A stretch of 64,000 bases of DNA from positions 124,001 to 188,000 of the forward strand of contig NZ_JMLS01000017.1 of the NCBI RefSeq assembly GCF_000686845.1. The letters run 5' to 3'. This stretch comes from Paenibacillus sp. UNC451MF. Lineage in GTDB: Bacteria > Bacillota > Bacilli > Paenibacillales > NBRC-103111. Under the pieces are notes generated by a model. The model was given only the letters and a program-made list of their open reading frames with translations, was not told where the DNA came from and ran no database searches. The position numbers and the translations under genes were made by a program. This document shows, piece after piece, positions 3,054 through 11,689 of the stretch (position 1 is its first letter; the number at the start of each line of letters is the position of its first letter).

Positions 3054-3437
3054 TTAGCCTACTTCACGCCCTGTTGTACCTTGGTACCTATGAGAATGTG
3101 GAAAACGTCCGTTTACTGTTGTAAACCCTTGAAAATAGTGGTAATGTCCACCAGTAGGGAAGTCAATAGCAGGGCCAGTAACTCCACGAAGGTTATGTGT
3201 ATGCCCGTCATCAAGCGAGGTAACAGCGTAATAATCATGTGTATGTTGAACACCACTAGCAGCAGGCTCGGTCATTCCAGCATAATGATGATCATGTCCT
3301 GCATCAAATGAGGTAATCCCTGAAAATGGATGTGAATGAACAGGCCTCCCATCCCAAGAAGTGATATACAATTTGTGTGAATGGTCTGACTCAGAATCAT
3401 TTGAGTGAAAGATAAAGCCTGTAATAGGTATCTCCAT
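3054..3437 (-). CDS. YmaF family His-repeat protein
   Basis: A 127-residue protein made of about seven short repeats (roughly 20 residues each), each centred on an HxH-type motif: DHSH, VHSH, GHDHH, QHTH, GHTH, GHYHY and PHSH. This is the pattern of the Bacillus YmaF family, whose function is unknown. The regular spacing suggests a beta-repeat fold with metal-binding histidines. The ATG at 3437 is preferred; an in-frame GTG three codons upstream at 3446 is an alternative, and neither has a strong ribosome binding site. There is no signal peptide. It lies beside a CDF metal transporter, which fits a role in metal binding, but this is inference. Confidence 0.75.
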   Translation of the reverse strand: MEIPITGFIFHSNDSESDHSHKLYITSWDGRPVHSHPFSGITSFDAGHDHHYAGMTEPAASGVQHTHDYYAVTSLDDGHTHNLRGVTGPAIDFPTGGHYHYFQGFTTVNGRFPHSHRYQGTTGREVG

Positions 3438-3663
3438 AATACACACCCACGCTTTCTATGATATTTGCCTATCCATAATATGAATGGGGAAGACGATTGG
3501 ATACTCCTCCATCCGGTGAATGACCAAAATCAGCTTTTTTGGGTAATGACTGAAGAAATTTTCCAAAGTAAGAATTCTTTCACACTGGTTAGGGCAAGAT
3601 ACTTTGGGGAACTGCAACTGCGAGAAGAAGCATTTCCTAATACAGTGTGAGGGAGTGAGATGA

Positions 3664-3909
3664 ATGGTAAAGAACAATGAGCGTAATCGTAATGATGATT
3701 CTGCCCAAGAAACGACTGAGATGGCTGGTGCTGACGTAGGCGAAGCTGTAGGAACAGCAGGTGGCGGTGCTCTAGGAGCAATCGTAGGCTCTGCCTTGGG
3801 GCCTGTTGGTACCGTTGTAGGTGGTATAGTAGGCGCAGCTGTTGGTAACAAGGCCGGCGAGAACGTTGGAGATAATGAAGCTGCAAATGATAATAATCAG
3901 AAAGATTAA
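3664..3909 (+). CDS. Small glycine-zipper protein
   Basis: An 81-residue protein. Residues about 22-70 are dominated by Gly, Ala and Val with GxxxG spacing (GTAGGGALGAIVGSALG, then GTVVGGIVGAAVG), flanked by charged, hydrophilic ends. This matches glycine-zipper proteins that form helical hairpins in or on membranes. The start follows GGGAGTGAG. It is the last gene before the bacteriocin cluster but is separated from it by terminators, so it is probably an independent unit. Stress-related membrane proteins and pore-forming peptides share this composition; the function is unknown. Confidence 0.7.
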   Translation: MVKNNERNRNDDSAQETTEMAGADVGEAVGTAGGGALGAIVGSALGPVGTVVGGIVGAAVGNKAGENVGDNEAANDNNQKD

Positions 3910-3920
3910 CATGATGTGAG

Positions 3921-3956
3921 AAAAAAAGGTGCAGGTGAAATCCTGCATCTTTTTTT
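3921..3956 (+). terminator. Terminator of the glycine-zipper gene
   Basis: The stem GGTGCAGG with a 6-base loop and CCTGCATC, flanked by A7 and T8 runs, lies 11 bases after the stop codon. A second, weaker hairpin followed by T7 is at about 3990-4017. Confidence 0.85.
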
Positions 3957-4083
3957 ACTAACTTCTTACATTCCAAGAATCGAATTCTTAAAAACCGTGC
4001 CTAGACGGCTTTTTTTATTTTAAGGGACCAAATCCTTGTCTAAATTAAGACAAGAATTTGGTTATTTTTTTGAGCAAAGAGAA

Positions 4084-4128
4084 GCGTTTAATTGGCATTT
4101 GGTACAAACGCCTATAAAATGGGCGTTT
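4084..4128 (+). promoter_or_regulatory. Candidate promoter and operator of the bacteriocin precursor
   Basis: A TTGGCA (4092-4097) and a TATAAA (4113-4118), spaced by 15 bases, resemble a sigma-A promoter with short spacing. The second box sits in the loop of an inverted repeat: AAACGCC at 4106-4112 and GGCGTTT at 4122-4128. A further GCGTTT at 4084-4089 pairs with the same AAACGC. These arms could bind a repressor. The repeats are seen directly; promoter activity is inferred. Confidence 0.4.
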
Positions 4129-4241
4129 GATTCAGTAACAAATGCGGAGATACTCCATAAATTGGAATTATGTTCATCAAGAGCAGTTGAGCCTTCCATT
4201 ATGCTCATACCAACTAGAAAAAATTATTGGAGGTTTTTAAA

Positions 4242-4556
4242 ATGAATGAATTCCAAAATGATCTTCAACAATTAAGCGTTTCTTCCCAATTTCAATCCAG
4301 TGAGATGACGCCTTGGAGCCAACAAAGCCAATATCCAGAAGGTCAGTATCCCTATGGAGTGAATCCGGTGGATCCAGCACGGTTATGTATTGGTTTTGGT
4401 GTCGGTTTTTGTGTCGGCTTTTGCGGTGGTTTTTGCACTGGCTTCTGTGGAGGTTGCGGCGGCTGCGGAGGCTGCGGAGGTTGCGGTGGATTCCGCTGCG
4501 GAGGTTTTCGTTGTGGTGGATTCCGTTGCGGCGGCTGCCACCATCGTTGTCGCTAA
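4242..4556 (+). CDS. Heterocycloanthracin/sonorensin-type bacteriocin precursor
   Basis: A 104-residue peptide with a ribosome binding site GGAGG at 4229-4233 and ATG at 4242. Residues 1 to about 50 form a hydrophilic leader beginning MNEFQNDLQQLSV, similar in style to heterocycloanthracin leaders. The rest is a core made almost only of Gly and Cys with Phe and Arg: repeated xGFC units, then four GGC units, three GGFRC units and a GGCHHRC end. There are 14 cysteines, no Ser and a single core Thr, so a YcaO cyclodehydratase would produce thiazol(in)es. The four downstream genes encode that machinery. The cleavage site between leader and core is not evident. Confidence 0.92.
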   Translation: MNEFQNDLQQLSVSSQFQSSEMTPWSQQSQYPEGQYPYGVNPVDPARLCIGFGVGFCVGFCGGFCTGFCGGCGGCGGCGGCGGFRCGGFRCGGFRCGGCHHRCR

Positions 4557-4579
4557 TCGTTTCGTCTCGCTGAAAACCC

Positions 4580-4609
4580 TGCCCCTGCAACGACAAGTTG
4601 TCAGGGGCA
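4580..4609 (+). terminator. Hairpin between precursor and maturation genes (attenuator-like)
   Basis: The stem TGCCCCTG (4580-4587) / CAGGGGCA (4602-4609) is extended inside by CAAC/GTTG and followed by TTTATT. The U-tract is weak, so partial read-through is likely. That would give more precursor mRNA than enzyme mRNA, a common arrangement for ribosomal peptides. Confidence 0.65.
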
Positions 4610-4712
4610 TTTATTCATTATGGGCAATGGCATGTGGGACGAATTGATGTACATATATTACTAGGAGAGCGATTCTACAAATTGGCACTATGTACCATTT
4701 AGGAGGAGTGAA

Positions 4713-6641
4713 ATGACAAATTTAACCCCTGCTGCACGTCTGAAAGTAAAGGAGGACACGTTTTTTCTCCCTGTTCCGAACGATGCGGTGTATTTCCGGA
4801 ATAATGTAGGCACATTTCGGATGGAAGGCGGGATGATCGAGCGTTGGATTGAAAAATTAGTTCCTATGTTTAATGGGGAGCATACATTAGCGGATTTAAC
4901 GAACGGATTATCGCACCCGCATCGGGAACGGGTTTACGAAATCGCGAACGTGTTGAACCAGAAGGGCTTTGTCCGGGATGTTAGTAAAGACAGGCCGCAT
5001 CAATTATCGAACGAGATTATCCAAAAGTTCGCTGCTCAAATCGTATTTTTAGAAAGCTTTGGCGATTCAGGGGCATATCGGTTTCAGAGTTATCGGCAGA
5101 CTGGCGTACTAGCAGTAGGCTCTGGTCCGTTTTTTGTCGGGTTGGTTTCTGCATTATTAGAGTCAGGACTTCCAAAGATCAATATGTTGATAACGGAATC
5201 CGAGCCAACGAACCGAGAGCGGCTGGCAGAATTGGCGGATCAAGCCCGTCTTAGTGATCCTGATGTGGTGCTTAAGGAGATTAATAAACGAAAAGAAGGA
5301 GCAGACGGTTGGAGGGACGCTGTACAACCATATCAAGCGATTTTGTATGTATCTCAAGTTGGAGATTTAGAGGAGTTCCGACTCCTCCATGCAGTTTGCA
5401 AAGCAGAGAAGAAAGTTTTGCTTCCGGCCATGTGCCTTCATCAGACAGGAATGGCAGGTCCCGTCGTGCATCCAGAGTATGAAGGGTGCTGGGAATCGGC
5501 ATGGCGCCGAGTCCACCAAACGGCTGTTCACAAGAATCCTGAGCAGCATTCTTTCTCAACCACTGCCGGGTCGATGCTTGCTAATGTGATTGTGTTCGAG
5601 CTTTTTAAAAAAGTTACTGGAGAAACTGAGCTAAGAAACTCGTTTTTTCTGCTGAATCTGGAAACATTGGAAGGGGGCTGGCATCCATTCATACCGCATC
5701 CTTTGGTACACGGGTTTGCGAAGCCACAGGCGGATCGAGCATCGAAGCTGCAATTTGACGGGAAAGAGGAGAGTTCGGACCCAGATGCATCCAACCGTTT
5801 GTTTACTTATTTGAATCAATTGACTTCACCGCAATCGGGAATCCTCCATATTTGGGAAGAGGGGGATCTAAAGCAACTCCCACTTTCCCAGTGCCGTGTC
5901 CAGGCGGTTAATCCGCTTTCGGAAGGACCGGTCGAAATGCTGCCGGAGATGCTTGGAACAGGTCTTACACACGAAGAAGCGCGGTGGGAAGCAGGGTTGA
6001 TTGGGATTGAAGCGTATGTAGCCCGCTTGGCGGAAATGCTCGTGCCTACTAAAGAAGTTATGGGAATCGGTGTAGGAGGAACTACGGCAGAAGCGATGTT
6101 ACGTGGGTTACAAGCAAATTTAACCGAACGGTTGGCTGCACAGCAGGAAGTTCGGAAGCCATATGTCACACGGGTGCAGTTGAGCAGAGTGGAAGATGAA
6201 CGATGTCGGTATTATATGCAAGCTTTGACTGCTATGGGGAAAGAACCGGTGATTGGCTTGGGCGAGGAAGTTTTGGGATTCCCTACAGTTTGGGTCGGTA
6301 CAACTGACTATTGGTATGCCAGTACCGGATTAAATAAAACAATGGCTTTGCAGAGAGCACTTAAAGCGGCGCTGCAGAAGGTACAAAATCAATCCGTATA
6401 CCCAGCGCATCACGTGCTGGAAACCGCATCGGTGCGAATTGGAAACGAAACGATGTCTGATCTCATGATTCCTTCGAGTGAAGGAACTGCACAATCACAG
6501 ACAGCATTACAGGAAGCTTTGGAGATTCTGACGAAGAACGGCAAGCAGCTCTTTGTTGTGGATCTAGCCGTGGAGCCGTTTTTGAAAGAAGGGCTTAGTG
6601 GTGTATATGGTGTGCTGCTTCGAGAGGGGGAATCCCGGTGA
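4713..6641 (+). CDS. Ocin-ThiF-like protein (putative thiazole-containing bacteriocin maturation protein)
   Basis: A 642-residue protein with ATG 7 nt after GGAGGAG. The N-terminal about 90 residues resemble a peptide-recognition winged domain, followed by an E1/ThiF-like Rossmann fold (about 125-330, QTGVLAVGSGPFFVGLVSALL) and a C-terminal YcaO-related region (about 420-640) without the full catalytic motifs. It matches the F protein of heterocycloanthracin clusters. From work on that family, F proteins bind the precursor leader and present it to the cyclodehydratase. Its stop overlaps the GTG start of the next gene (GTGA), so the two are translationally coupled, as expected for partners in one complex. 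Confidence 0.88.
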   Translation: MTNLTPAARLKVKEDTFFLPVPNDAVYFRNNVGTFRMEGGMIERWIEKLVPMFNGEHTLADLTNGLSHPHRERVYEIANVLNQKGFVRDVSKDRPHQLSNEIIQKFAAQIVFLESFGDSGAYRFQSYRQTGVLAVGSGPFFVGLVSALLESGLPKINMLITESEPTNRERLAELADQARLSDPDVVLKEINKRKEGADGWRDAVQPYQAILYVSQVGDLEEFRLLHAVCKAEKKVLLPAMCLHQTGMAGPVVHPEYEGCWESAWRRVHQTAVHKNPEQHSFSTTAGSMLANVIVFELFKKVTGETELRNSFFLLNLETLEGGWHPFIPHPLVHGFAKPQADRASKLQFDGKEESSDPDASNRLFTYLNQLTSPQSGILHIWEEGDLKQLPLSQCRVQAVNPLSEGPVEMLPEMLGTGLTHEEARWEAGLIGIEAYVARLAEMLVPTKEVMGIGVGGTTAEAMLRGLQANLTERLAAQQEVRKPYVTRVQLSRVEDERCRYYMQALTAMGKEPVIGLGEEVLGFPTVWVGTTDYWYASTGLNKTMALQRALKAALQKVQNQSVYPAHHVLETASVRIGNETMSDLMIPSSEGTAQSQTALQEALEILTKNGKQLFVVDLAVEPFLKEGLSGVYGVLLREGESR

Positions 6642-8581
6642 ACGTAGGGGTAGCTATTATTGGCGAGGGAGGATTGGCGGGGCTCGTAAGTAAAGAGATG
6701 TCCTCCCTATGCCAGGTTGTGCGTCTGAACGATTTTAAGGAAGAAGTTCCTGAATCGGTCGATTTTGCCTTGGTACTGCACGATGCATGGCATCCTTCTG
6801 TTCATCGGGAGGCGGAAGAGATGTTCCGGGCAGCAGGCATTCCATGGCTGCGAGGCTTTGTTACCTTCGGTGAAGGTGTAATCGGACCACTGGTTCGGCC
6901 AGGGGTCTCCGGTTGCTCGCATTGTGCTGACACACGCCATCTCATGGCGGGACGTGACCGCAAGGAAATGTGGATGCTGGAGCAGCGTCTGACTGAGGCA
7001 GGGGGAATTCCTCACGATGCTTGGGCATCGCGTACTGGACTTTTACAGATGACACATCTGCTTGTTAAAGAGTCACAGAAGGTAATTCAGGGCAAACGGT
7101 CTCAATTGGAGGAACTGATGTTTTTCCTTGATCTGAAAACATTGACGGGTAAAACTCATTTCTTTTTGCCCGACCCGCTATGTCCGACATGCAGCTATTT
7201 GATAGAAGATACGCCGGAGAGGGCGTCCATTTTGCTTCAACCAAGTCCTAAAATCAACAGAAAAAGCTACCGAAGTCGATCATTAGAGGATCTGGCGGGA
7301 TTTTTAGTTAAAGATTATTTGGATTATAAGACCGGGTTCTTGAATGGAAAAATGGTTGATCTTGTTTCTCCTTTTGCCGATGTGAGCGTAAATCTTCCGA
7401 TGTTTGATCAGGATGAGCCAACGGCTGGCCGTACCCATTCCTACGCGGAGAGCGAGCTGACAGCTATTATGGAGGGATTGGAGAGATATTGTGGAATGGC
7501 GCCCCGTGGCAAAATGCCGGTGATCCATGATAGTTATCGTAATCTGGCGAATCATGCCCTTGATCCTTCAGCAGTAGGCTTGTATGCGAAGGAACAATAT
7601 GAGCAGCCACATTTTCCATTCAAGCCCTTTCACTCTGAAGAGCCTATCGACTGGGTGTGGGGTTATTCATTCGAGAGACAAAGTCCGATATTAGTACCGC
7701 AACAGCTAGCCTATTACAGTTCTCCCTGCGGACATGGGTTTATCTATGAAACGTCCAACGGCTGCGCGTTGGGTGGAAGCATGGAGGAGGCAATATTTTA
7801 CGGCATCATGGAAGTGGTGGAACGAGATTCTTTCCTGATGACTTGGTATGCGCAGCTTCCGCTCCCTCGGCTTGATGTACATTCTACCGGTGATTCCGAA
7901 TTGGAGCTTATGATCAACCGCTTGCGAACGGTGGCAGGATTCGATGTGTATTTGTATAACGCGACTATGGAAAATGGAATTCCGAGCGTTTGGGCGTTGG
8001 CCAAAAACATGAAACCCAAAGGGGTAAATCTCATTTGCGCTGCAGGAGCACATCCGGATCCGGTTCGTGCTGCGAAAAGTGCGGTTCACGAATTATCTGG
8101 GATGATGCTGACGCTCGATGGAAAGTTCGAAGAAAACCGAGAGAGGAACGTGCAGATGTTCCACGATCCGTGGTTGGTTCGCAGTATGGAGGATCATTCT
8201 ATGCTGTACAGCCTGCGGGAAGCAGAGGATCGTCTTCAATTTCTACTGGAAGATAACCGACCTTTAAGGACATTCCAGGAGGAATTCAAACAAGCGCCTG
8301 AACACACAGATCTGACCGATGACCTGAAGGCTGCGCTCCAATCGTTCCACCGGTTGAAGCTCGATGTGATCGTAGTCGATCAGACGACTCCAGAATTAAA
8401 ACGAAACAATCTATATTGTGTTAAGGTGCTAATTCCAGGAATGCTTCCAATGACTTTCGGTCACCATCTCATGAGGGTGACGGGGTTGGATAGAGTATTA
8501 AAGGTACCGGCACTACTCGGGTATGTAAAGCAACCGCTGCTCTTAGAACAGCTTAATCCGCATCCGCATCCGTTCCCATAA
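6638..8581 (+). CDS. Fused E1-like/YcaO azoline-forming cyclodehydratase
   Basis: A 647-residue protein. The N-terminal E1-like part (1 to about 240) holds two CxxC pairs, C93-C96 and C182-C185, the zinc tetrathiolate of such partner domains. The YcaO domain (about 255-647) shows the ATP-binding Glu/Arg pattern (ESELTAIMEGLERY; EAIFYGIMEVVERD) and ends in PHPHPFP, the Pro-rich C-terminus (PxPxP) characteristic of azoline-forming YcaO enzymes. It would use ATP to phosphorylate the amide and cyclise Cys residues of the precursor to thiazolines. The GTG start at 6638 is preceded by AGGGGG and overlaps the stop of the F protein gene. Confidence 0.93.
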   Translation: MNVGVAIIGEGGLAGLVSKEMSSLCQVVRLNDFKEEVPESVDFALVLHDAWHPSVHREAEEMFRAAGIPWLRGFVTFGEGVIGPLVRPGVSGCSHCADTRHLMAGRDRKEMWMLEQRLTEAGGIPHDAWASRTGLLQMTHLLVKESQKVIQGKRSQLEELMFFLDLKTLTGKTHFFLPDPLCPTCSYLIEDTPERASILLQPSPKINRKSYRSRSLEDLAGFLVKDYLDYKTGFLNGKMVDLVSPFADVSVNLPMFDQDEPTAGRTHSYAESELTAIMEGLERYCGMAPRGKMPVIHDSYRNLANHALDPSAVGLYAKEQYEQPHFPFKPFHSEEPIDWVWGYSFERQSPILVPQQLAYYSSPCGHGFIYETSNGCALGGSMEEAIFYGIMEVVERDSFLMTWYAQLPLPRLDVHSTGDSELELMINRLRTVAGFDVYLYNATMENGIPSVWALAKNMKPKGVNLICAAGAHPDPVRAAKSAVHELSGMMLTLDGKFEENRERNVQMFHDPWLVRSMEDHSMLYSLREAEDRLQFLLEDNRPLRTFQEEFKQAPEHTDLTDDLKAALQSFHRLKLDVIVVDQTTPELKRNNLYCVKVLIPGMLPMTFGHHLMRVTGLDRVLKVPALLGYVKQPLLLEQLNPHPHPFP

Positions 8582-8602
8582 AACGACCTAGGAGGAAGGA
8601 AG

Positions 8603-10180
8603 ATGAGTCTGGAAAAATTCCTGGGCAGCCTTCATTCGGATAGCGATGATTTCAAGCCTTCGGATTGGGAAGTCGATTGGGATGATGCGCCGCTAACATA
8701 TAAGCTATACCGCAACTTACCTGTTATTCCACTTTCCCCTGAGCTGCCATTGTCTCTCTATAGATATAAATCGCCCGCCAATCCTGATCTGACAACCATC
8801 GGTCACATTCTCTGGCATGTTTATGGTCTAACCCGAATAAACCAGTTACCTACATATTCTTCCATGGGCTATACGGGCAGCCCTGTACAGATGTACCGGC
8901 GGTTTGTCCCTTCGGGCGGCGGTTTGTACCCGAACGAGCTATACGTATATTTGAAGACAGCGGATGCTCCTGTAGGAGTATATCATTATGACGCGGCGCA
9001 TCATCGGTTGGTTTTGCTCCGCGAGGGCGATTTTGATTCCTATCTGACCCGGGCACTAGGTAATCGATGCGACATATCGGGTTGTTTTGGAACGGTCTTT
9101 ACTTCAGTCATGTTTTGGAAAAACTATTATAAATACAATAACTTTGCTTATCGCCTACAAGGACTAGACACTGGTGTATTGACGGGTCAATTACTCGAGG
9201 TGACGAGACGGTTCGGTTATGAATCAAGTGTATATTTTCAATTTCTTGATCGAGCAGTCAATCATCTGCTTGGGATAACCGATCAGGAGGAAAGTGTATA
9301 TGCTGTCATTCCGCTTTCGGCCAAACCAACAGCAACAAGACTTAATCAGGGGATCGTCGAATTGGCGGGAAGCTCTGCCGTTGAATTGTGCAGGGAACTT
9401 CCAGTCATTCGGCACGAGCACTACGTACGGTCGCTAGAAATCAAGGAGTACCCGATGCTGACCAAGATGAACGAAGCTTCAATGTTAGATTCAACCAGTT
9501 CTTTTGGATATGTTAAGGCGGTGAAGCATGTTGAAAGCGGGCTTCAGACCGTATTCATGCCCCGTGTGGATCGGTTAACGTATGATTTAGCATCCGTCTG
9601 CCGGAAGCGAGCTTCGCCAGAGTCGAATTTCGTATTGAGTAAGGTGACACAGTCAGAAGTGGCGACTCTCCTGCAAGAAGCGACGGCTTCTTTGTCCTAT
9701 AATAATGATTTGAATGGTAATAATGAAAATCCTATTTCACGTATTTCCTTATACTGTTGCTTGTATAACGTTGATGGCATTCCAAACGGAGCTTATTGTT
9801 ATGATAGTGAGGCTCATTTGTTACGCCGAGTACGGCCAGGAGATCAACGGCTACGGTTACAGAAGGGAATGTCGTTGGATAACGTGAATTTGTTTCAGGT
9901 ACCAATGTGCTTGCATGTAGTTGGTGACAAGGACTACCACAAATCGGTATTAGGGTATAGGGGATATCGAATACAGCAGATGGAAGCGGGTATGCTTGTA
10001 CAAAGCTTGTTATTAGCGGCGTCTTCCATCGGATTGGGTGGGCGGCCATTGCTCGGATTTGATCCTGCTCTTTGTGACGAACTTTACCAATTGACTGATC
10101 AAGGAAAGACTACCCTGATCCAAATTCCGATCGGTCACTATCGTTATCGTGCTCTTTTGGAAGGCAGCCTGCACAGTTAG
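8603..10180 (+). CDS. SagB/ThcOx-type FMN-dependent azoline dehydrogenase
   Basis: A 525-residue protein starting 21 bases after the cyclodehydratase, with an AGGAGGAAG ribosome binding site. It contains two nitroreductase-like halves. The first (about 60-260) has RRFVPSGGGLYPNELY near 99-114, the FMN-binding signature of SagB proteins. The second (about 340-520) has LVQSLLLAASSIGLGGRPLLGFD. Such enzymes oxidise thiazolines to aromatic thiazoles with FMN. The tandem-domain length is usual for many Bacillus-group SagB-type proteins. No protease or exporter follows in the cluster. Confidence 0.9.
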   Translation: MSLEKFLGSLHSDSDDFKPSDWEVDWDDAPLTYKLYRNLPVIPLSPELPLSLYRYKSPANPDLTTIGHILWHVYGLTRINQLPTYSSMGYTGSPVQMYRRFVPSGGGLYPNELYVYLKTADAPVGVYHYDAAHHRLVLLREGDFDSYLTRALGNRCDISGCFGTVFTSVMFWKNYYKYNNFAYRLQGLDTGVLTGQLLEVTRRFGYESSVYFQFLDRAVNHLLGITDQEESVYAVIPLSAKPTATRLNQGIVELAGSSAVELCRELPVIRHEHYVRSLEIKEYPMLTKMNEASMLDSTSSFGYVKAVKHVESGLQTVFMPRVDRLTYDLASVCRKRASPESNFVLSKVTQSEVATLLQEATASLSYNNDLNGNNENPISRISLYCCLYNVDGIPNGAYCYDSEAHLLRRVRPGDQRLRLQKGMSLDNVNLFQVPMCLHVVGDKDYHKSVLGYRGYRIQQMEAGMLVQSLLLAASSIGLGGRPLLGFDPALCDELYQLTDQGKTTLIQIPIGHYRYRALLEGSLHS

Positions 10181-10236
10181 TCAGAAACGCTTATCATCCA
10201 ACCAATGATTTGCTAATCTTACTCCACCAGTAATGT

Positions 10237-10242
10237 TATAAT
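10237..10242 (+). promoter_or_regulatory. Extended -10 promoter candidate before the acetyltransferase
   Basis: TGTTATAAT reads as a TGnTATAAT extended -10, with TATAAT at 10237-10242. The -35 region is weak (a TAATCT 17 bases upstream). It suggests the acetyltransferase can be expressed apart from the azole enzymes. Confidence 0.4.
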
Positions 10243-10294
10243 CATAGAAGATTAACTTTTCTTGGACATGGATTATCGAAAGTGGTGAATAGGA

Positions 10295-10855
10295 TTGGAT
10301 ACATTGGAGTACCAGATCACAGACGAGTGGGACGAAACCCGTTGGATCACCGTGGAGCAAATCTACGAACAAGCGTTTCCGCTTGACGGCAAGAAAAGTC
10401 GAGACATCATTCGTCGCATGTTTGAAAAACGTATGTGTCAGCTGCACACAATCGCTCAAGGATCAGAAATCGTTGGGATGGCGCTAACTGGAATCGATAA
10501 ACAAGCAGACGCTTTGCTAATCGATTATTTAGCGGTTCGTACTGATGTTCGCGGCAGAGGTTACGGACGATTACTGCTGGACCGAATCAAGCAATGGACG
10601 CGTACGGCTGCGGGCTGCAAAGGAATTATTGTTGAAGTGGAATCCGAACCGACGGAGGAGAATAGCCGGCGAGTCCATTTTTGGGAAATGAACGGGTTCC
10701 ATCTTACTGCTTATGTTCATCAATACATTTGGGTACCTGAGCCTTATCAGGCAATGTATTTGAACTTCGATGAGATGGATCGGTTGCCTGAGGATGGGAT
10801 AATGTTATTTCGCAGTATTACACGGTTTCATGAAAAGGCGTATCGTCGTAAATAA
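10295..10855 (+). CDS. GNAT family N-acetyltransferase at the end of the bacteriocin cluster
   Basis: A 186-residue protein. The acetyl-CoA binding motif appears as [15 protein letters not shown] (about residues 85-100), after the LIDYLAVR beta strand, and a FWEMNGF segment marks the usual C-terminal part. The TTG start at 10295 is chosen because no ATG is near; the ribosome binding site is poor (AGTGGTGA or AGGA). It lies 114 bases after the dehydrogenase gene on the same strand. In other azole peptide pathways an acetyltransferase can modify the peptide N-terminus or protect the producer. Either is possible here, as is an unrelated role. Confidence 0.8.
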
Positions 10856-10943
10856 TAGTGTCCCCCCGATAACAAAGAATGAATCACAAATGAATATTCT
10901 GTCCATATTAACTGTGGTGTGAATTATTAAGGAGGAATATTCA

Positions 10944-11153
10944 ATGACAGACCAACAATCGAATCAACATGAGCAAAGTGCAAGAACCAAAGCTCAAAAT
11001 GAGTTGAATCACGCACTCCACGCGCTTAACGAAGCAACTCATAGTAATGTCAATCGAGAACAAGACGTTCAGGCTGCAAAAGAGCAGCTGCAAAAAGCCC
11101 AATTGGAACATATGCAGGCTAAAGTTTCTGACAGCCAAGACTCACTTTCTTAA
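10944..11153 (+). CDS. Small hydrophilic coiled-coil protein
   Basis: A 69-residue protein, very rich in Gln, Glu, Ala and His, with no hydrophobic segment. Heptad-like spacing (about residues 14-58) suggests one long helix or coiled coil. It has a strong AAGGAGGAAT ribosome binding site and its own terminator, so it is probably a real single-gene unit. No family was recognised. It resembles small soluble spore or stress proteins in composition only. Confidence 0.6.
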   Translation: MTDQQSNQHEQSARTKAQNELNHALHALNEATHSNVNREQDVQAAKEQLQKAQLEHMQAKVSDSQDSLS

Positions 11154-11163
11154 ACGATAATTG

Positions 11164-11180
11164 CCCCCCCAAGAGGGGGT
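11164..11180 (+). terminator. Terminator after the small coiled-coil gene
   Basis: A C-run and a G-run around AAGA form a short GC-only stem, followed by TGTTTTTAT. It starts about 10 bases after the stop codon. Confidence 0.75.
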
Positions 11181-11227
11181 GTTTTTATATACAAAAGTCC
11201 TACAATGCAGAAAATGAATCCAGGCAG

Positions 11228-11278
11228 TTGACATACTTGTTGTTTCAAGGATATTATAGATACAATAAGTCTTTGTAT
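11228..11278 (+). promoter_or_regulatory. Promoter and dyad of the Rrf2 regulator gene
   Basis: TTGACA (11228-11233) and TATTAT (11252-11257) are spaced by 18 bases. Just downstream lies the dyad ATACAA (11260-11265) / TTGTAT (11273-11278), a good position for autorepression by the Rrf2 protein. Confidence 0.55.
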
Positions 11279-11290
11279 TGAGGTGTTATT

Positions 11291-11689
11291 ATGAGATTTA
11301 CAAAAGCGACCAATTATGCTCTGCATACTATGCTCTTGCTTGTTGATGCTTCTTCAGCGAAGCCAGTTGGCGTTCAGCAGTTGGCGGAATCTCAAGGTGT
11401 TTCACCCACCTATCTTTCCAAAATTTTAACGAGGCTCGTGAAAGCTGGAATGATCGAATCGATTTCCGGGGCCAACGGAGGCTATCGATTATCCCGCAAA
11501 AAAGACGACATTAATTTTTTGGATATTATCCATGCCATTGAGGGGAATGCCTCCTTGTTTGAATGTGATTTTGTCCATGGCGACGAATGCTTGATTCAAG
11601 CTGTTATGAAGGAAGCGGAAGAGAAGATGGAGGGGCATCTCAAGAATACAAAATTGATGGATCTGGCCAAAAAGCAAACGCAAGTTTAA
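11291..11689 (+). CDS. Rrf2 family transcriptional regulator
   Basis: A 132-residue protein with the standard Rrf2 start MRFTKATNYALHTMLLL and a winged helix (about residues 1-80, with GVSPTYLSKILTRLVKAGMIES as the recognition region). Two Cys residues follow in the C-terminal half (FECDF and DECLIQ), fewer than the three of Fe-S cluster members such as IscR or NsrR. It may sense redox state or be cofactor-free like YwnA. It precedes a CPYC flavoprotein gene on the same strand and may control it; a related ATAGATAT dyad lies between the two genes. Confidence 0.88.
   Translation: MRFTKATNYALHTMLLLVDASSAKPVGVQQLAESQGVSPTYLSKILTRLVKAGMIESISGANGGYRLSRKKDDINFLDIIHAIEGNASLFECDFVHGDECLIQAVMKEAEEKMEGHLKNTKLMDLAKKQTQV

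Follow-up and report, generated by a model that had tools for sequence, protein, structure and literature searches.

A heterocycloanthracin gene cluster in Paenibacillus sp. UNC451MF with a probable late mother-cell promoter before its precursor gene

We analysed a 64 kb stretch of the Paenibacillus sp. UNC451MF genome (contig NZ_JMLS01000017.1, positions 124,001 to 188,000; contig C14 of the 7.49 Mb genome G000 in our numbering), hereafter the window, and found that it carries a complete heterocycloanthracin (HCA) gene set of the LAP/TOMM type at 4242–10180, consisting of a precursor, an F protein, a fused E1-like/YcaO cyclodehydratase (CD) and a SagB-type FMN dehydrogenase (B). From its conserved upstream elements, the precursor gene is probably expressed late in the mother cell under sigma-K and GerE, and the enzyme genes slightly earlier from a sigma-E-like promoter. 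The cluster itself is of a known HCA kind; the regulatory reading is the part worth following, as it turns an absence of genes into a testable model.

The HCA gene set and its family

The four genes of the cluster all exceed the cut-offs, which are the curated NCBIfam values for HCA components:
4242–4556, +: HCA precursor, 104 aa; TIGR03601 44.2 bits (cut-off 35)
4713–6641, +: F protein (ocin-ThiF-like), 642 aa; TIGR03693 721.8 bits (cut-off 561.9)
6638–8581, +: CD, 647 aa; TIGR03604 414.5 bits (cut-off 219.25), TIGR03882 151.9 (cut-off 36.9), PF02624 309 bits
8603–10180, +: B, 525 aa; TIGR03605 198.9 bits (cut-off 78.4), with two nitroreductase-like stretches

An earlier, sequence-only reading had described a Cys/Gly-rich precursor, an Ocin-ThiF-like protein, a fused E1-like/YcaO enzyme ending in PHPHPFP, a two-domain SagB-type dehydrogenase and a GNAT protein on one strand. 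We find all five genes on the + strand where they had been placed, and the matches above bear out the identities given to the first four. The precursor has 14 Cys and 25 Gly in its 104 residues (unmodified mass 10,939 Da), with an FxxxL motif at F4–L8 of the leader, a boundary between DPARL and C, and a core of CGG and CGGF(R) repeats that holds the 14 Cys; an FxxxB motif lies within the first 14 residues in 37 of 38 Paenibacillaceae precursors. Residues 10–90 of F match the solved RRE of PbtF (8t19; E=1.7e-6). An E1-like part comes next, and the C-terminal part beyond it weakly resembles YcaO (PF02624 at residues 450–619, E=2e-4, below the cut-off), from which F may be a degenerate relative of a whole C-D enzyme. 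The CD gene starts with GTG, overlapping the stop codon of F, and its product has CxxC pairs at 93 and 182 and the PHPHPFP end. We aligned its YcaO domain to TruD, MusD and LynD; for the C part, the alignment to TruD is weak and begins at residue 184, and the RRE hidden Markov model (HMM) lists no CD at E≤1. Inactivating substitutions in the YcaO site, named beforehand as what would speak against the proposal, were looked for and none was found: over 64 CDs (G102 left out), E279, E282, R283, E384, E392, E395, R396, both CxxC pairs and PHPF are invariant. We take these residues to line the ATP/Mg and Zn sites. Residues 20–493 of B match residues 27–491 of the 511-aa structure 3eo7. Because the set is complete and its enzymes look intact, a polythiazole peptide is the likely product, as had been proposed. 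The gene set is not a chance assembly, since a cluster of the same type recurs in 11 other genomes of the genus, with identities to the window of 69–83% for CD, 57–78% for F and 59–75% for B; the nearest named CD relatives are Paenibacillus sp. RC67, sp. 32352 and P. agricola (79–83% identity).

Several known systems resemble this cluster. Sonorensin of Bacillus sonorensis is predicted in the same precursor family and has Cys-rich repeats like HCA, yet its core sequence is different; unlike the peptide predicted here, it has been reported as a purified antibacterial. The HCA clusters of the B. cereus group share the precursor family, an F protein with RRE, the truncated fused CD and B, with neither exporter nor protease in the common set (Haft 2009; Cox 2015). 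They differ in that the precursor gene is remote from the enzyme genes in most B. cereus strains whereas it adjoins them here, in the CGGF/CGGFR repeats of the window core, and in the three loci found in one genome here. Micrococcin TclI/TclJ/TclN and the thiopeptide F proteins (PbtF RRE, 8t19) are alike in combining an RRE and E1-like F with an E1-YcaO cyclodehydratase and an FMN dehydrogenase. TclI is described up to residue 242 (PMC10634744), whereas the F protein here has 642 aa, including a long additional C-terminal part, and no thiopeptide dehydratase or cycloaddition family is among the recurring neighbours of 36 HCA loci (families named by eye).

These 36 Paenibacillaceae loci were chosen, not randomly sampled, from F hits with a full-length F protein. 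Each of the 36 has F, CD and B, with a Cys-rich precursor-like open reading frame (ORF) beside F. Among ORFs of at least 70 aa, we saw no widely recurring family of exporters, proteases, immunity proteins or regulators; the most frequent additional one, judged from its motifs to be an ABC ATPase, occurs near 7/36. Since only the precursor, F, CD and B recur throughout, in agreement with Cox 2015, where CD, F and B alone are common to all HCA clusters (PMC4603692), and with Haft 2009 (PMC2674419), the missing exporter and protease genes are a property of the HCA family and not of the host strain. The sequence-only reading was thus right that none lies nearby, but the oddity that it implied is the rule of the family.

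Promoters of the precursor and enzyme genes

Two elements stand upstream of the precursor gene, from which we infer a sigma-K/GerE-type promoter:
4117–4128, +: GerE-like box AAATGGGCGTTT, 12/12 to RWWTRGGYNNYY, which we take to be the GerE consensus
4138–4164, +: sigma-K-type promoter, AC (4138–4139), N16, CATAAATTG (4156–4164), with the layout of published sigma-K promoters

The sigma-K-type promoter sits within a block, AGTAACAAATGCGGA-N7-CATA (4134–4159), that is conserved across genera upstream of the precursor. Sigma-K has been described as using a five-base -35 element, 15 ± 1 nt from a ten-base -10 element that is common to sigma-E and sigma-K (PMC517825). The promoter of bclA, CAC-N16-CATATGTTA, is of the sigma-K kind and loses activity when sigK is mutated (PMC4750369). 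The exosporium genes bclA, bclB and cotB share with the HCA precursor a short -35 with C, 16-nt spacing and a CATA -10, with GerE for some; they differ in encoding spore-surface proteins with a measured sigK/gerE dependence (PMC4750369), whereas that of HCA is predicted.

The block is nearly exclusive to HCA genes. Over 104 Paenibacillaceae genomes, AGTAACAANNGCGGA-N5-9-CATA occurs at 51 places in 45 genomes, the reversed control at 0, and a comparison of coordinates puts 48 of the 51 just upstream of an HCA precursor. The remaining ones are at G041:C35 and G075:C23, which look like chance, and in G100, where an intact precursor promoter motif (L203:4514) is followed by a gene that is transposase-like by eye, with no precursor. 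A related pattern precedes a precursor in 32/32 occurrences in the fetched loci, ten of which carry CATATGTTG.

For the quantification of these elements, we compared 38 Paenibacillaceae precursors, 24 precursors of other Bacilli families and 540 control genes. The other-family set represents 24 of 30 fetched loci; L209, L210, L224, L231, L236 and L237 were dropped, no precursor being seen in them. A composite of the GerE core and AC-N15-18-CATA was found upstream of 23/38 Paenibacillaceae and 17/24 other precursors but only 1/540 controls, with shuffles giving means of 0.1 and 0.0. AC-N16-18-CATA alone is present in 38/38, 22/24 and 62/540, respectively, the GerE 12-mer in 23/38, 11/24 and 11/540, and the GerE 8-mer in 25/38, 20/24 and 63/540. 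The composite has a single match in the window, at 4117; the fetched sequence, 1.24 Mb in all, has 36 matches, of which 24 precede precursors.

A second conserved element precedes the F gene, with a hairpin between it and the precursor:
4577–4610, +: hairpin between the precursor and F genes, -21.3 kcal/mol
4630–4659, +: sigma-E-like promoter, GCATGTG (4630–4636), N15, CATATATT (4652–4659)

This element was found by regular expression about 80 bp before F in 34/36 loci and consists of a CATA -10 and, at the distance usual for sigma-E, a CATG block, with GGAC(A/G)A between them. In the window, GGGACGAAT stands between the -35 and -10 elements and is SpoIIID-like, with one mismatch to what we take to be the SpoIIID core. 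When 36 F upstream regions were compared with 547 controls, RRAC[AG]R-N5-14-CATA...T was present before 34/36 F genes vs 3/547 controls, the sigma-E layout KMAT-N16-18-CATA...T before 21/36 vs 8/547, and CATA...T before 35/36 vs 81/547. In the host genome the F-promoter patterns occur at 1 and 2 places, one of which is a second HCA locus (locus B, below), and these places revealed no set of spore genes sharing them; neither pattern can match the window's site exactly. A hairpin follows the precursor in 15/15 loci examined, standing between precursor and F at those of the window's class, the best 34-nt window reaching -18.3 to -25.7 without a shuffle control, and the one in the window is possibly a terminator or a processing stem. 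Rfam gave 0 matches in 3600–11300, and thus none to the hairpin.

A sporulation model and its rivals

The roles of F, CD and B are established for relatives, whereas the acting sigma factor and regulator, the timing, the release route, the protease and the product are what we infer for the HCA cluster. F would bind the leader through its N-terminal RRE and hand the core to CD, which would form thiazolines by ATP-dependent cyclisation of Cys side chains onto the carbonyl before them. The FMN enzyme B would then oxidise these to thiazoles, with up to 14 rings and a mass change of about -280 Da. The enzymes would be made early from the sigma-E-like promoter and the precursor late under sigma-K/GerE, both in the mother cell. 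The leader could be cut at the conserved (S/A)R-L-C boundary, here after Arg47, by YabG or another sporulation protease that takes Arg at P1, and the product would be freed at mother-cell lysis or laid on the spore. As a modified peptide made in a mother cell that will lyse would need neither exporter nor immunity, such a model would explain why exporter, protease and immunity genes are outside the common set of the family.

HCA precursors occur in 59 of 398 sampled Bacilli genomes (E≤1e-8), and we extend the model to them with evenly balanced confidence. In this extension, HCAs as a family would be sporulation products and not conventional secreted bacteriocins, with the mother cell making the enzymes early and the precursor late, an Arg-specific spore protease cutting the leader and release by lysis or mounting on the spore, and a branch of F/CD pairs lacking the RRE, described below, would work without leader recognition. 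If this is true, HCA peptides are recast as spore-stage products, to be looked for in sporulating cells and spores and not in vegetative supernatants; the conservation of a sigma-K/GerE-type promoter across families makes the when, where and why of peptide production and exit testable. In literature searches, none of the titles and abstract openings listed linked HCA to the control of sporulation.

Two further lines are consistent with the model. (S/A/G)R(L/Q)C stands before the core in 33 of the 38 Paenibacillaceae precursors, and 22 of the 24 precursors from other families have a basic residue at most 4 residues before the first Cys. YabG is described as made in the mother cell under sigma-E/K and as probably specific for Arg at P1 in C. 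difficile and B. subtilis (PMC10681294), and the leader is perhaps removed by an Arg-specific spore protease of this kind. In B. cereus biofilm, HCA-family genes are reported as up, and so are sporulation genes at 24–48 h (PMC6962202).

Several points weigh against the sporulation model. The composite is missing at 15/38 Paenibacillaceae and 7/24 other precursors, and the GerE core at 13/38; the composite was fixed post hoc, after alignments of most of both sets had been viewed, and many of the loci are related. The GerE, sigma-E and SpoIIID consensus strings are working assumptions. The strict SpoIIID core is found in 17/36 F upstreams vs 93/547 controls, with the window site one mismatch off. 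We hold the sigma-E half less firmly than the precursor promoter, because the generic sigma-E/K match-count score at the F promoter is barely above shuffles (10.56 vs 9.79; 7.69 vs 7.37). The precursor motif may be bound by a dedicated regulator, since its conservation exceeds what a bare sigma-K site would require and it is found almost only at HCA genes. There is also a sigma-70-like site (10/12) at 4092–4120, one of 3 in the region (shuffles mean 1.5). The B. cereus biofilm sporulation genes drop at 72 h (PMC6962202). Sonorensin, a predicted member of the family, is described as a purified membrane-damaging antibacterial, and the word 'sporulation' does not occur in that paper (PMC4544038).

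One alternative, which we regard as possible though less likely than not, is that the peptide is mainly a structural or protective component of the spore surface, thiol/azole-rich and perhaps metal-binding or UV-absorbing, and not an antibacterial. It overlaps the sporulation model, which leaves the role of the peptide open. The late mother-cell type of the precursor promoter, the lack of a recurring immunity gene and the low-complexity cores, in which 9–23 Cys stand with Gly or His/Asn and which differ much between loci, all suit such a component, but the family name and the sonorensin data favour antibacterial action.

An ordinary stationary-phase bacteriocin, secreted by a general exporter and processed by a protease encoded elsewhere in the genome, with the upstream blocks as the site of a cluster-specific or stationary-phase regulator, seems to us unlikely. 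The sonorensin reports, the near-exclusive precursor motif, which suits a dedicated regulator, and the sigma-70-like site at 4092–4120 argue for it. However, the 36 loci show no widely recurring family of exporters, proteases, immunity proteins or regulators, the promoter layout fits sigma-K/GerE in several families, and a strict sigma-70-like pattern is not enriched (3/38 Paenibacillaceae and 0/24 other-family precursors vs 42/540 controls). A silent or decaying cluster is highly improbable given the open frames, the invariant conserved residues, the conserved promoters and the presence of clusters of the window's class (class A) in 12/13 genomes of the genus, its own included.

Further loci, F proteins without RRE and neighbouring genes

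The host genome contains three F, three CD and three precursor genes, and the window precursor alone is above the TIGR03601 cut-off. Locus B holds a full cluster that has diverged and contains CHN repeats (identity to the window 50% for F, 55% for CD and 52% for B). Beside it lies a 215-aa ORF (L010:10704–11351, -) whose MWPGQGGGG and GGHGG repeats resemble, on inspection, spore or matrix proteins of low complexity. Locus B is also followed downstream by two ORFs (252 and 142 aa) that look ThrE-like and have counterparts of equal size at locus B of G009; they were rejected as part of the cluster, no such family recurring at class A loci. Locus C (contig C3; F at L012:931–2496, -, with CD beside it in L011/L012) has an F protein without about 125 N-terminal residues, a CD with 53% identity and no B, and a precursor about 8 kb away that is 68% identical to that of the window and has the same promoter. 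In G003, an extra HCA precursor (L046:7684–8539) is followed by an ORF whose match to F is confined to the first 43 residues; this looks like a duplicate of the cluster that has been broken.

F proteins like that of locus C form a class. Of the RRE region, 100 residues or more are retained in 36 of 65 aligned F proteins and fewer in the other 29, of which 6 still give a partial RRE match; no separate RRE gene was found near RRE-less F by the RRE HMM. In the CD tree, the partners of RRE-bearing F proteins make up one side of a single branch (35 rows, 100/99), while those of RRE-less F proteins are spread over several groups (27 rows, 4 changes). The dN/dS values are 0.17–0.41 for CD and 0.26–0.42 for F, and 0.17–0.42 for the usable class C pairs (pairs used: G000C-G002C, G000C-G007C, G044s-G049s, G058s-G046s and G096t-G079t; left out, as their alignments were out of frame: G000C-G009C and G000A-G009A).

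RRE-less F/CD pairs recur in G002, G003, G004, G005, G007–G010 and other genera, and RRE-less F is the only kind of F in 11/104 family genomes, among them G102, a distant match (G071, G073 and G091, with F fragments only, are left out of this count). These 11 genomes have no TIGR03601 match at E≤0.01, and one of them, G038, has a TIGR03605 match. G063 is an exception of another sort, with a full-length F but no entry among the matches of either TIGR03601 or TIGR03605. Neither B nor an HCA-like precursor stands beside RRE-less pairs, except in G005 and G081, where the pair adjoins a full cluster, and in G000, with the precursor 8 kb off; in G065, one Cys-rich ORF without the HCA leader is near the pair. 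We considered whether RRE-less F/CD might borrow the RRE of the window's cluster, and this is weakened by the 11 genomes whose sole F lacks a full RRE. Possibly, RRE-less pairs modify a protein target, perform thioamidation, or use an unlinked precursor that is read in another way.

Some of these pairs have unusual arrangements. In L108–L114 (G042, G044, G046, G049, G051, G058 and G065) they are head-to-head, and the enzyme-type promoter motif is retained upstream of F in 7/7; the CD clade to which they belong has Leu instead of the last Pro in 11/12 members. In G005 (L063:3476–12511), a complete HCA operon is immediately followed, on its own strand, by an RRE-less pair, as though one cluster were served by two cyclodehydratases.

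Two neighbours in the window were considered as further members of the cluster:
10295–10855, +: GNAT acetyltransferase (PF00583), outside the cluster
2–904, -: MFS gene, running off the window, oriented away from the cluster

The GNAT gene is present as the sequence-only reading had it, but its membership in the cluster did not hold: blastp against the ORFs of the other loci examined returned only itself, and we regard it as a bystander and not a tailoring enzyme. The MFS gene, put forward as a weak export candidate, was rejected; it is on the minus strand and distant, with a SufR-like regulator and a cation-efflux gene in between, and no exporter family recurs in the 36 loci. Also beside the cluster, at 3054–3446 (-), is a 130-aa protein with many His-containing HSH/HDHxH-like motifs.

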